From an uncultured Synechococcaceae cyanobacterium (lineage in GTDB: Bacteria > Cyanobacteriota > Cyanobacteriia > PCC-6307 > Cyanobiaceae): a stretch of DNA of 42,323 nucleotides. Location of the stretch: NCBI GenBank assembly GCA_903907855.1, contig CAIVPT010000139.1:1-42323 (forward strand), read 5' to 3'. Position numbers and translations under genes: made by a program. The notes beneath the pieces were generated by a model that worked only from the letters and a program-made list of their open reading frames with translations, had not been told where the DNA came from and did not search any database. Position 1 is the stretch's first letter. Every line of letters starts with the position of its first letter. This document shows, piece after piece, positions 683 to 16,800 of this stretch.

Positions 683-1060
683 TCACTCAATCCGGAACCA
701 GCGATCGATGCGCCCCGGGGCACCCGTGGGGCTGCCCTCGCGGGTGATCACCGCGTAGGTGTGTCCTTCCGTGGATCTCCATTCAAAACGGCACAGGCCC
801 AGACCGGTGCTGGCACAGGAGGCGAGTTCCGGGAAGCGGGTGCAGCGCCGATCGTCCGGCAGCACCGCCGCACACGATTCGCTCTCACGGCGCAACGGCG
901 GTCGCCAACCCTGGGCCAGCAGGCGGGATCGGGCCAGCCCGTAATCCTCCCCGAGCCGCAGCGGCGGCGGCACCTCGGCCGCCAGGGGTGCGGGCAGCAG
1001 GAACGCCAGGACGCCCAGTGCGGCCAGTGCCCCCCCTGACAGCAGGGAACACCGCGCCAT
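683..1060 (-). CDS. Small secreted hypothetical protein (125 aa)
   Basis: The function is not recognised. The protein begins MARCSLLSGG, followed by a hydrophobic run (ALAALGVLAFLLPAPLAA) ending in a typical signal-peptidase site, so it is probably exported to the periplasm or membrane. The mature part (about 97 residues) has five Cys residues (in ESCAAV, RRCTRF, ASCAS and GLCRF), which fits disulfide formation outside the cytoplasm. It ends GRIDRWFRIE. Its ATG (1058-1060) shares one base with the TGA of the upstream gene (TGATG), so the pair is probably translationally coupled. The open frame continues upstream of this ATG, but only this start gives a signal peptide and the coupled junction. 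Confidence 0.7.
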   Translation of the reverse strand: MARCSLLSGGALAALGVLAFLLPAPLAAEVPPPLRLGEDYGLARSRLLAQGWRPPLRRESESCAAVLPDDRRCTRFPELASCASTGLGLCRFEWRSTEGHTYAVITREGSPTGAPGRIDRWFRIE

Positions 1061-1422
1061 CAGCCGCGATGGGCCAACAAGGTGCGCACCATCAGCCGCA
1101 GGGTGTCGCGGGTGCCACCGGCGCTCCGCCAGCGCTCCAGCCACTGCAGCAGCGGCGCCGCTGGCTCGGCGGCCTGATCGGCCTCGAGAGCTGGTGGCGA
1201 CTGGATGCCCAGGCGGGCCAGGAAGGCGCTGGCATCGTCGAGACAGGAGCCGCCGTCGCCGAAGCCGTCGAGACGGGGATCGAGGGCAGCCAGCAGGGTT
1301 TCCAGCTCCTCGACACTCAACTCCGGCAGCGGCTCGGGGCCCGGCTCGGCCGCGGGATCGACTAGCGGATCGGTGGACAGGGCTCTGGGGCAACTCCCCC
1401 AGCATGGCGCGCCTTGCCCCAC
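1060..1422 (-). CDS. Hypothetical protein, first gene of a coupled pair
   Basis: The 120-residue protein has no family I recognise. It is acidic in its first half (PELSVEELETLLAALDPRL) and helical and basic toward the end (LQWLERWRSAGGTRDTLRLM). It has no signal peptide or membrane segment. The start is uncertain: GTG at 1422 is the most upstream, and internal starts are possible because the first 30 residues are low-complexity (Pro, Glu, Ala). Its stop overlaps the ATG of the small secreted protein by one base, so the two form an operon. It is divergent from the small membrane gene at 1456, with about 33 bases between the starts. Confidence 0.55.
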   Translation of the reverse strand: MGQGAPCWGSCPRALSTDPLVDPAAEPGPEPLPELSVEELETLLAALDPRLDGFGDGGSCLDDASAFLARLGIQSPPALEADQAAEPAAPLLQWLERWRSAGGTRDTLRLMVRTLLAHRG

Positions 1423-1657: not shown

Positions 1658-2155
1658 TCAGCGCCGCTGCGGCCGCGGCGGCAACAGATGGTGCACCGCA
1701 TGCCGCACCACTCCCCAGAGCTCGGTGTCCTCAGCAGCGGCCTCGCTCCCCTCCGGATCGATCGGCAACGGAATCGGTGGACTGGCGCCATCGCTGGCCA
1801 CCAGAACAAGCCGGCCGCCGCGCCGTTGCAGGCGCCGCACCAGGAATTCGCTCTCATGGACCGCCACCACCACCATGCCCGGCCGGGCGTCGACACTGCG
1901 GTCGATCACCAGCAGATCGCCATCGACGATGCCGTCGCCGCGCATCGCCTCACCGCGGACGCGCATGAAAAAGGTGGCCAGGGGCCGGGGGATCAGGACC
2001 CCATTCAGATCGATGCGGCCCTCCACGTAGTCGTCGGCGGGACTGGGAAAGCCGGAGGTGGGGCCGGGAAAGCCGGAGGCGCCGGCCTCGACGACGAGGG
2101 GCACGGGCACCGCCGAGGAGAGGGCGCCGCGGGGATCAAGGGAGTGCACGACCAT
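1658..2155 (-). CDS. umuD: UmuD-like S24/LexA-family protein lacking the catalytic Ser and Lys
   Basis: This is a UmuD homologue of 165 residues. Residues 34-53 (SGFPSPADDYVEGRIDLNGV) match the UmuD cleavage region and following arm closely, and the beta-rich S24 core follows (GDGIVDGDLLVIDRS, ELWGVVRHAV). In E. coli UmuD, RecA-stimulated self-cleavage at Cys24-Gly25 uses Ser60 (GDSM) and Lys97 (VKKL), and the cleaved form joins UmuC in polymerase V. Here the same places read GEAM (Ala70, codon GCG at 1946-1948) and VRRL (Arg107, codon CGG at 1835-1837). Both catalytic residues are therefore replaced. The cleavage bond would be Ser-Gly, and the segment around it is duplicated (SGFPGPT then SGFPSPA). 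No umuC is adjacent. The start is the ATG at 2155; an in-frame ATG lies further upstream. Family assignment is firm; loss of activity is inferred. Confidence 0.85.
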   Translation of the reverse strand: MVVHSLDPRGALSSAVPVPLVVEAGASGFPGPTSGFPSPADDYVEGRIDLNGVLIPRPLATFFMRVRGEAMRGDGIVDGDLLVIDRSVDARPGMVVVAVHESEFLVRRLQRRGGRLVLVASDGASPPIPLPIDPEGSEAAAEDTELWGVVRHAVHHLLPPRPQRR

Positions 2156-2175: not shown

Positions 2176-2189
2176 AGTACATGCGTACC
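2176..2189 (-). promoter_or_regulatory. LexA (SOS) box upstream of the umuD-like gene
   Basis: The minus strand reads GGTACGCATGTACT. This fits every position of the reported cyanobacterial LexA box consensus RGTACNNNDGTWCB. It ends 21 bases before the ATG of the UmuD-like gene, where bound LexA would block transcription, and its other side faces the divergent DUF985 gene (ATG at 2249, 60 bases away). Damage-inducible control of the umuD-like gene is a strong inference; control of the cupin gene is weaker. Confidence 0.75.
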
Positions 2190-4424: not shown

Positions 4425-5984
4425 CTAGGGGTCCTCCCGGCGCCACTCCTGAAGACGCCTCACCCCCTCCGCCGAGCCGGGGCAGCAGAGATGACTCCTC
4501 TGCCGTTCCTCCTCGGTGATCGCCTCCAGCTTGTCCAGCTGGCCTTCGATCACCGCAGCATCGGCGTCCGAGGGATCGAGCCCCAGGCGCCGCCGCTGCT
4601 CCACCCGCTCCCGGGCCTGCTCCGGCCCGCAGACGCACTCGAGAATGGCAAAGTCGGCCCCGCTGAGCCGGGCTAACTCCCAAAAGACCTCGCGATCGGA
4701 GCGCCGCAGGAAGGTGGCATCGACCACCACATCCATCCCCGCCGCCAGAACCGCCGCCGCACAGCCGCCGAGGCGCTCCAGGTAAAGCCAACGGCTCACC
4801 GCCGGGGCATACAGCACGGATGGGTCAGGCACCTCCGCCCCAGCACCCGCCTCCCCCCAGAGCCCGAAACGCCGCTTGCGTTCGCCATCCGAGCGCAGAT
4901 GCATCCAGCTGGGCTCCTGCGCAAGCCGGGAGGCCCAGTGGCTCTTGCCACTGCCCGAGATCCCGTGGGTGATCACGAGGGCCGGCCGCCGCGGCCGGAT
5001 CACCGCCTGGGCCCAACGCAGGTACGAGCTCAGGTCGCCCCGCCGTCTCCCGACTTCCTCCGCCGCCAGATCCGGCTGGGAGAGCCGCAGGGCGGTCACC
5101 TTGGCGCGCACCAGGGCCCGATACACCCGATACCAGGACCACAGGCGCAGGCCCACGTAATCGCCGCTGCGCTCGAGCCAGCGGCTCAGCAGGCGGTGGG
5201 CCTCGATCGCGCGGCCACCATGCTGCAGATCCATCGCCGCGAAGGCCAGGTCACTGATCGCATCAATCCAGCGCAGCTGGGGACTGAACTCGAGGCAATC
5301 GAACACCTCGATGCGTCCGTCCAGAAGAGCCATGTTGCCGAGGTGCAGATCACCATGGCCCTCGCGCACCCGGCCCTCCGCCTTGCGGCGGCGAAACAGG
5401 GGCGTCAGCCGCTGCGCCTGGGCCTCACTCCAGTGCCTCAGCGGCGCCACCACCGCCGGATCGACACCGCAGCGCTCCAGCACCGCCAGGTTGGCCAGGG
5501 CGGGATCGCGCACGCTCGGCGGCTCGCCCCAGGGATCCCCTGGGGAGGCCACCGCCGCCCGGGCGTGGAAGGCCGCCAGCCGTTCCGCCAGCTCCTCAAA
5601 GGCGACGGGGGGAACGCTGCCGTGGGCCAGGGCCTCCGGCAGCAGGGCCTCCTGGGGGAAGCGACGCATCATCAAGGCCGTTTCGATCACCGGCCCGCCA
5701 CCGTGGAAGCGGGCCCGCTCCAGTGGCCCGTGGATCGGCACCACCGCCAGGTAGAGATCGGGCGCCAGGCGACGGTTGAGGCGCAACTCCTCGGCGCAGA
5801 ACCAGGCGCGGCGGGCCTGGGTGCTGAAGTCCACGAAGCCCAGGTCGACCGGTTTCTTGATCTTGTAGGCCACCGGCCCCACCAGGAGGATCCAGGAGAT
5901 GTGCGTCTCCAGGAGCTCGATCGGCTCGGGTGGCGCCGGCTGATGGGCCTCGGGACGCAGCAGGGCGGCGATCAGCGGATCCAT
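4425..5984 (-). CDS. Fusion of an aminoglycoside-phosphotransferase-like domain and a P-loop kinase/ATPase
   Basis: This 519-residue protein joins two enzyme-like domains. Residues about 1-320 resemble the protein-kinase-like/APH fold: TALMMRRFPQEALLPEAL in the N-lobe, GHGDLHLGNMALLDGRIEVFDCLEF as the Brenner-type catalytic loop (HGDLHLGN), and a metal-binding Asp in FDCLEF. Residues about 335-519 form a small P-loop NTPase with Walker A GISGSGKSHWA and a later VVVDATF strand. This two-domain arrangement is known in many bacteria as COG2187 plus COG0645-type proteins, whose substrates are not established. It is unlikely to confer drug resistance by itself. It has no signal peptide or membrane segment. 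The ATG at 5984 is preceded by a divergent region toward the nuclease-like gene at 6104. Confidence 0.85.
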   Translation of the reverse strand: MDPLIAALLRPEAHQPAPPEPIELLETHISWILLVGPVAYKIKKPVDLGFVDFSTQARRAWFCAEELRLNRRLAPDLYLAVVPIHGPLERARFHGGGPVIETALMMRRFPQEALLPEALAHGSVPPVAFEELAERLAAFHARAAVASPGDPWGEPPSVRDPALANLAVLERCGVDPAVVAPLRHWSEAQAQRLTPLFRRRKAEGRVREGHGDLHLGNMALLDGRIEVFDCLEFSPQLRWIDAISDLAFAAMDLQHGGRAIEAHRLLSRWLERSGDYVGLRLWSWYRVYRALVRAKVTALRLSQPDLAAEEVGRRRGDLSSYLRWAQAVIRPRRPALVITHGISGSGKSHWASRLAQEPSWMHLRSDGERKRRFGLWGEAGAGAEVPDPSVLYAPAVSRWLYLERLGGCAAAVLAAGMDVVVDATFLRRSDREVFWELARLSGADFAILECVCGPEQARERVEQRRRLGLDPSDADAAVIEGQLDKLEAITEEERQRSHLCCPGSAEGVRRLQEWRREDP

Positions 5985-13803: not shown

Positions 13804-16800
13804 ATGTTCACCCAGGTCCGCTCCGCCAACCGCCGGGTCGTTCCCGACAGCACCGGGGATCGGGCCGTGATGAAGGCCGTCTACGTGGTGCTCGAACCCC
13901 AGTACCAGAACGCCCTCACCCAGGCCGCCACCAGCCTCAACGACCAGAACGGCCCCCTGGCGATCGAGCTGAGCGGCTACCTGATCGAGGAGCTGCGCGA
14001 CCCGCAGAACTACGCCGATTTCTGCGCCGATGTGGCAGCGGCCGATGTCTTCATCGCCTCGCTGATCTTCATCGAAGACCTGGCCCAGAAGGTGGTGGAG
14101 GCTGTAGCGCCCCATCGGGATCGGCTCAAAGCGGCGGTGATCTTCCCCTCGATGCCCGAGGTGATGCGCCTCAACAAGCTGGGCACCTTCTCGATGGCCC
14201 AGCTCGGCCAGAGCAAAAGTGCGATCGCCGGCTTCATGAAAAAGCGCAAGGAGGCCGGTGGCGCCGGTTTCCAGGACGCGATGCTCAAGCTGCTCAACAC
14301 CCTGCCAACGGTGTTGAAGTATCTGCCGGTGGAGAAAGCGCAGGACGCCCGCTCCTTCATGCTCAGCTTCCAGTACTGGCTGGGGGGTACGCCGGACAAC
14401 CTGCGCAACTTCCTGTTGATGCTGGCCGATAAATACGTCTTCCCCCGCGGCGAAGACGGCCGGCCCGCCCTGCAGGTGGCCGATCCCGTGGTGTTTCCAG
14501 ACCTGGGGATCTGGCACCCCCTGGCCCCGGCCATGTTCGAGGACATCAAGGAGTACCTCAACTGGACCGCCAGCCGCAGCGACCTGGATGACAAGGCGCG
14601 GAGCGGCCCGGTGATCGGCCTTGTTCTGCAGCGCAGCCACATCGTCACCGGCGATGAGGCCCATTACGTGGCGGTGATCCAGGAGCTGGAGTACCGCGGC
14701 GCCACGGTGATCCCGGTGTTCTGCGGTGGCCTCGACTTCACCCGACCGGTGAATGCCTTCTTCTTCGATCCGCTGAATCCGGACATACCCCTGGTGGATG
14801 GGGTGGTCTCGCTGACCGGCTTCGCCCTGGTGGGGGGACCGGCCCGCCAGGACCACCCCAAGGCGATCGAGGTGCTCAAGAAGCTCAATCGCCCCTACAT
14901 GGTGGCCCTGCCGCTGGTGTTCCAAACCACCCAGGAGTGGGAGGAGAGCGATCTGGGCCTCCACCCGGTGCAGGTGGCGCTGCAGATCGCGATTCCCGAG
15001 TTGGATGGTGCGATCGAGCCGATCGTGCTCAGCGGCCGCGACGACGCCACCGGCAAGGCCCACACCCTGCAGGACCGGGTGGAGGCCATCGCCGAGCGCT
15101 CCATCCGCTGGGCCTCCCTGCGCATCAAGCCCCGCAGCGAGAAGAAGCTGGCGATCACCGTATTCAGCTTCCCGCCCGACAAGGGCAATGTGGGCACGGC
15201 GGCCTATCTCGATGTCTTCGGCTCGATCCATCGCGTGATGGAGGAGATGCGGGCCAAGGGCTACGACGTCAGCGGCCTGCCGCGCTCGCCCAAGGAGCTG
15301 ATGGACGCGGTGCTCAAGGATCCTGAGGCGATGGAGGGGGCGCCGGAACTGGCGATTGCCCACCGCATGAGCGTGGCCGAATACGAGCGGCTGACGCCCT
15401 ACTCCGTGCGACTTGAGGAGAACTGGGGCAAGCCGCCCGGCACCCTCAACTCCGATGGCACCAACCTGCTGATCTACGGCCGTCACTTCGGCCATGTGTT
15501 TGTGGGGGTGCAGCCCACCTTCGGCTACGAGGGCGATCCGATGCGCCTGCTGTATTCCCGCAGCGCCAGCCCGCACCATGGCTTCGCCGCCTACTACACC
15601 TATCTGGAAAAGGTCTGGGGCGCCGACGCGGTGCTGCACTTCGGCACCCATGGCTCCCTGGAATTCATGCCCGGCAAGCAGATGGGCATGAGCGAAACCT
15701 GCTACCCCGATTCCCTGATCGGCGCCCTGCCGAATCTCTACTACTACGCCGCCAACAACCCCAGCGAAGCCACGATCGCCAAACGTCGCGGCTACGCCGA
15801 AACGATCAGCTACCTCACCCCGCCGGCTGAGAATGCCGGGCTCTACAAGGGGCTCAAGGAGCTCGGTGAGCTGGTGGGTAGTTACCAGCAGCTGCGCGAA
15901 GGCAGCCGTGGCGTGCAGATCGTCAACGCGATTGTGGAAACGGCACGCCAGTGCAACCTCGACAAGGATGTCAGCCTGCCCAACGGCGACGCCTCCGAGC
16001 TCGATGTGGAAGGTCGCGATGCGGTGGTGGGGGCGGTCTACCGCCAGCTGATGGAGATCGAGAGCCGGTTGCTGCCCTGCGGCCTGCACACCATCGGCAA
16101 GCCTCCCACCGCCGAAGAGGCGATCGCCACCCTGGTGAATATCGCCGCCATCGAACGGCCGGAGGAGGGCCTCCGCTCCCTGCCGGGCCTGTTGGCCGAA
16201 GCCCTGGGCCGCACGATCGATGAGGTTTACCGCGGCAATGACGCCGGCGTGTTAGCGGATGTGGAGCTCAACCGCCACATCACCGAAACCTGCCGCACCG
16301 CGGTGGGGGCGATGGTGCGCGAGGTGACCGGCGCCGATGGCCGGGTCACACTGCGGCGCAACTTCGGCTGGCTGTTCGAGCTGCTGGAGCGCTTCGGGCT
16401 GCGGCTGCCGAGCCCCTGGCTGAGCGCCTGCCGCCAGGGCGGCTTCGCGGCGGTCGATCCGGTGGAGCTCGACAAGCAGTTCGCCTACCTGCGCTTCTGC
16501 CTCGAGCAGGTGTGCGCCGACCAGGAGATGGGCAGCCTGCTGCGGGCCCTCGACGGCGAGTACATCATCCCCGGGCCCGGCGGTGATCCGATCCGCAACC
16601 CCGGCGTGCTGCCAAGCGGCAAGAACATCCACGCCCTTGATCCCCAGGCCATCCCCACCCGGGCCGCCGTCGCCGCCGCCAAGGTGGTGGTCGATCGTCT
16701 GATCGAGCGCCAGAAGGCGGAGCAGGGCAGCTGGCCGGAAACGATCGCCTGCGTGCTCTGGGGCACCGACAACATCAAGACCTACGGCGAATCCCTGGCC

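Follow-up and report, generated by a model that had tools for sequence, protein, structure and literature searches.

We found that a umuD gene of an uncultured Synechococcaceae cyanobacterium encodes a protein that lacks both residues of the catalytic dyad, and that this loss is shared by all 58 orthologue sequences read, hereafter A. Our main reading, to which we give a probability of about 0.52, is that a UmuD was split after an old duplication in Cyanobium/Synechococcus-type picocyanobacteria, with A as its non-catalytic half and a second protein, B, as the enzyme half, which was lost in the lineage studied here. UmuD is the classic example of a switch that cleaves itself in mutagenic repair; what is known of its cleavage in trans comes mainly from engineered or mutant pairs. 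Nature appears here to have imposed the trans route by means of two genes and then removed the enzyme in some lineages, which gives a comparative test of the purpose of UmuD cleavage and of a possible division of labour between the two UmuD' subunits of Pol V. The gene lies in what we call the window, the whole 42,323-nucleotide stretch of DNA analysed (contig CAIVPT010000139.1); its features are given in Table 1.

Table 1. Sequence features of the umuD locus in the window
Feature	Position	Strand	Remarks
A-type umuD	1658..2155	(-)	165 aa + stop; Ser to Ala, Lys to Arg
Codon GCG, Ala70 (position of UmuD Ser60)	1946..1948	(-)	alignment to E. coli UmuD
Codon CGG, Arg107 (position of UmuD Lys97)	1835..1837	(-)	alignment to E. 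coli UmuD
Scissile dipeptide Ser34-Gly35	2051..2056	(-)	Ala-Gly in B-bearing relatives; sequence, alignment
21-bp tandem duplication	2039..2080	(-)	18/21 identical; encodes ASGFPGP-TSGFPSP; sequence and alignment
LexA (SOS) box GGTACGCATGTACT	2176..2189	(-)	perfect match to RGTACNNNDGTWCB; 20 nt upstream of the umuD ATG

The protein read from 2155 to 1658 matched Pfam Peptidase_S24 over residues 34-132 (E=8e-20). It scored 115.2 bits against the NCBIfam model PRK10276, 'Pol V autoproteolytic subunit' (cut-off 110), and 56 bits against the lexA model, and is thus closer to UmuD than to LexA. The name of the former model is misleading, as it labels a catalytically dead half "autoproteolytic". 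The best matches among solved structures were UmuD/UmuD' chains. An AlphaFold model had a confident core, with the first 30 residues modelled without confidence, and the top Foldseek matches of that core were E. coli UmuD' 1ay9/1umu (E ~1e-8, 40% identity). In a tree with E. coli UmuD as its root and LexA left out, the A clade fell with cyanobacterial UmuD. Sequence and fold similarity both place the gene in the UmuD family by descent, in agreement with the original prediction, which had been made from the letters alone.

Like the UmuD of E. coli Pol V, the window protein has the fold, the GFPSPADDY arm segment, IDLN, the GxxM region and SOS control; it differs in having Ala for Ser60, Arg for Lys97 and Ser for Cys/Ala at the scissile position, and in that umuC is not adjacent. 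Both dyad substitutions had been called correctly beforehand and, since neither catalytic residue of a self-cleaving S24 peptidase is left, so had the exclusion of self-cleavage. The bond before FPSP, expected to be Ala-Gly or Cys-Gly, is Ser-Gly in the window protein (TS/GFPSP), whereas 54 of the 58 A sequences have Ala-Gly. The tandem duplication in the arm is in-frame and, by alignment, confined to the window's copy; it was not among the output of Tandem Repeats Finder. Such a duplication is consistent with a cleavage site that may have become relaxed.

An A-type orthologue was present in 40/42 genomes of the window's genus. When the residues were read in 58 A-type sequences from five genus-level groups, a comparison that the original prediction had proposed, Ala and Arg occupied the Ser60 and Lys97 positions in 58/58, and the GFPS arm was kept. 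The codons varied (GCC, GCG or GCT for Ala; CGG, CGC, CGT or CGA for Arg), and synonymous variation was also seen at the scissile Ala. The comparison of dN/dS, likewise proposed, gave median pairwise values of 0.27 for A, 0.22 for canonical UmuD and 0.50 for B, the fastest class, these being rough figures from simple NG86 estimates on GC-rich genes. Between the window genome (G000) and its 90%-identical sister G291, the A gene showed dN 0.040 and dS 0.115. These alignments indicate that the dyad loss in A is ancient, clade-wide and under purifying selection. Sequencing error as the source of Ala and Arg is ruled out by their presence in every sequence, including the sister. The altered catalytic and scissile residues and the small duplication in the arm might also suggest a decaying pseudogene, but we regard this as very improbable, because the frame is open in 58/58, the dN/dS of the class and the excess of dS over dN between the sisters indicate constraint, and the LexA box is kept; intact and constrained orthologues contradict it.

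The neighbours of A are constant in the genus: a small ORF downstream (1422..1060 in the window) and, upstream, a Cupin_5 gene and a DUF4912/Rho_N gene, indicating that the window A is an inherited chromosomal gene. A phage origin of A was considered and rejected, as the viral relatives retrieved kept Ser in all 80 motif matches. Elsewhere in the window, the protein encoded at 4425-5984 (-) is 519 aa long; it has an AAA_33 kinase domain and matches Zeta_toxin weakly.

Most A-bearing genomes contain a second UmuD, B, directly upstream of umuC and co-directional with it. The GxSM Ser and the Lys were found in 38/38 of the B sequences read, all of which adjoin umuC. B starts near the IDLN segment and lacks the GFPSP arm and the site in 38/38, as judged from inferred start codons in assemblies that are often MAGs, with several B genes placed by position only; the B of G308 and G309 retains a degenerate AAGLP motif. 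Nearly all A-bearing genomes keep umuC, and in one genome (L087) the gene order is A-B-umuC. In other genera of the family there is a single, canonical UmuD, which retains the site, the Ser and the Lys and is almost always encoded beside umuC. In a tree built on few columns and with some long branches, B formed a single clade (99/93), A grouped with a further class, C, in another (100/97), and the canonical sequences were paraphyletic, so that the data are explained by a single duplication followed by complementary losses. The original prediction, right about the homology and the missing dyad, thus missed both the age and breadth of the loss and the dyad-bearing B beside umuC.

Although B evolves fastest, its Ser and Lys were never lost. 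Since the dyad of B and the site of A would both be dispensable if nothing were cut, and yet both are kept, it is likely that A is cleaved in trans in B-bearing relatives, presumably within an A/B heterodimer. A precedent is the E. coli UmuD S60A, which has the site and no Ser, and which is cleaved efficiently in trans by the arm-truncated, dyad-bearing UmuD 18 with RecA:ssDNA (PMC5342242); by analogy, the natural A/B pair looks like a two-gene self-cleaving switch. Both pairs combine an arm and site lacking Ser with a dyad on a shortened arm; however, the E. coli pair is laboratory-made, whereas in cyanobacteria A also lacks Lys, B has lost its arm entirely, and each is a conserved gene of its own.

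In the scheme we propose, DNA damage would relieve LexA repression, A and B would heterodimerise on RecA filaments, and the arm of A would be cut in trans by B. The resulting A'/B heterodimer would make Pol V, with the short arm of A' entering UmuC and B possibly binding the UmuC tail. An armed A' and an armless B would suit the two-role model of Pol V, in which one UmuD' subunit binds the UmuC tail and the other inserts its arm (PMC12926913). In the window lineage, B would have been lost and the scissile Ala, with the Val two residues earlier, changed, leaving A to serve UmuC as a full-length, uncleaved partner under SOS control. More tentatively, and at somewhat less than even odds, we suggest that this cyanobacterial group relies for Pol V on a UmuD encoded by two genes, whose substrate and protease subunits work solely as a heterodimer and whose licensing needs trans cleavage, and that some lineages, including the window's, then dropped both protease and cleavage.

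Alternatively, A might stay permanently uncleaved in all genomes, like E. coli UmuD S60A, pairing with a UmuD'-like B and restraining UmuC or serving as a checkpoint with no proteolysis involved. The fixed dyad loss in A would fit, as would a B that is shorter than UmuD' and could work without cleavage; moreover, the alpha subunit of polymerase III is bound by S60A variants, and cells that overproduce an S60A form are sensitised to UV (PMC5342242). We nevertheless consider this explanation unlikely, because the Ser and Lys of a fast-evolving B and the Ala-Gly in the A of every B-bearing genome would be unneeded without cleavage.

In P1 HumD, a UmuD lacking the site can do its work with no separate substrate, which counts against the split reading. 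B resembles the HumD family (NF051876) in being encoded already without a cleavable arm, but A (73 bits) and B (35 bits) both fall far under the HumD cut-off of 120, and the window protein has the arm.

In the window genome, the only S24 proteins found were the window UmuD and LexA, and the search for a second UmuD that the original prediction had called for found none. The parallel search for umuC gave one gene, the sole PF00817 (IMS) match in the genome; the gene upstream of it is divergent and is not B. A B profile run against six frames by umuC in all B-less genomes reached at best ~0.5 bits, which is noise level, compared with 153-182 bits for controls. The completeness of the genome is given as 99.72%, and B is likely, though with 320 contigs in the assembly not certainly, absent from it; the sister is in the same state, without B. 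The umuC of this B-less pair is under strong constraint (dN 0.015, dS 0.126), and its SIDEAF motif is intact in the window genome. A constrained umuC with an intact SIDEAF and no B suggests that Pol V is probably in use there with an A-only, uncleaved UmuD, and that the window A is probably a cleavage-independent partner of UmuC. The expectation that the protein stays uncleaved therefore fits the window genome best, which lacks B and has a changed scissile motif, but not necessarily the relatives, in which B could cleave A in trans. Its suggested role as an inhibitor of an active UmuD is unlikely in the window genome, where no active UmuD was found.

Changes of the scissile Ala were seen in B-less genomes. 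The scissile Ala of A was kept in 49/49 rows from B-bearing genomes and was changed in 4/7 B-less genomes, to Ser in G000, G291 and G300 and to Thr in G248; the same four had lost the Val/Ile two residues before the scissile position. Three B-less MAGs (G236, G305 and G311) kept Ala-Gly. The association between the change and the absence of B gave a Fisher value of 9.5e-5, which ignores kinship. On the tree there were three changes of the scissile Ala, all on B-less branches, which account for 25% of the length of the A clade (p ~0.015), and an independent-pairs test of low power gave 2:0 (p=0.5). It is on these three events that the connection between losing B and losing the site depends. We discarded the strict rule that the enzyme is absent wherever the scissile residue is not Ala, since halomonad UmuDs with Thr at this position (L250, L256) keep Ser and Lys, and Thr need not block cleavage. 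The Thr-Gly position with an intact Ser-Lys pair was seen in halomonad and viral UmuDs (L250, L256, L292, L295).

The same data bear on whether a different S24 protease, LexA being the simplest candidate, cuts A in trans. In the window genome LexA is canonical, keeping GDSM, the Lys (TLKHF) and the Ala-Gly site. Ala-Gly is the site of LexA too, and the Ala-Gly of the three B-less MAGs would be accounted for. However, LexA is present in all four genomes with a decayed A site and so did not by itself preserve the site, which makes this explanation quite improbable.

The LexA box of the window gene matches the cyanobacterial consensus RGTACNNNDGTWCB quoted in PMC3091678, of which the whole window contains 2 matches, against 0.04 expected by chance. 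In 35/58 A-type genes an exact box was found no more than 350 nt before the GFPSP codons. The window gene thus shares the LexA box of an SOS-regulated umuDC operon but not its adjacent umuC: none stands next to it, as the original prediction had noted, and the umuC of the genome lies on contig C272. The separation from umuC in most genomes, and the stable locus of A in the genus between unrelated genes, could mean that A took a new role without UmuC, for example binding the replicative polymerase, the clamp or RecA. We find this improbable in view of the LexA box, of the fold and DDY/IDLN segments conserved as in UmuD, and of the retention of umuC in nearly all A-bearing genomes, in one of which A, B and umuC stand together. 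The second consensus match in the window, GGTACTGGGGTTCG, is at 13893-13906 (-).

We found no natural catalytically dead or split UmuD in the open literature. To our knowledge, the LexA of Synechocystis PCC 6803 has no partner that keeps a catalytic half. That LexA is, like A in the window, a cyanobacterial S24 protein without the Ala-Gly site and the dyad Ser, but it is a repressor (PMC7567884). A duplicated umuD has been recorded in the group, in Cyanobium gracile PCC 6307, in a paper whose accessible part does not report catalytic or cleavage-site losses (PMC5101192).

Other UmuD variants were seen among the sequences collected. Class C (L161-L172, for example L161, L169 and L170), which groups with A, has its Ser replaced by Gly or Arg and its Lys by Arg, and the cleavage site is missing; a genome contains 1-2 copies, and a LexA box accompanies some of them. 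In the Synechococcus lacustris group (L083, L112, L202), a umuC-linked UmuD has Ala for Ser with Lys kept, and its N-terminal arm has just a few residues before GFPSP. The umuC-linked UmuD of L264 (Cyanobacteria bacterium SZAS LIN-3, a MAG) is altered at both dyad positions, with GDGL, LLRKI and a Val-Gly scissile position, and is possibly another independent loss.
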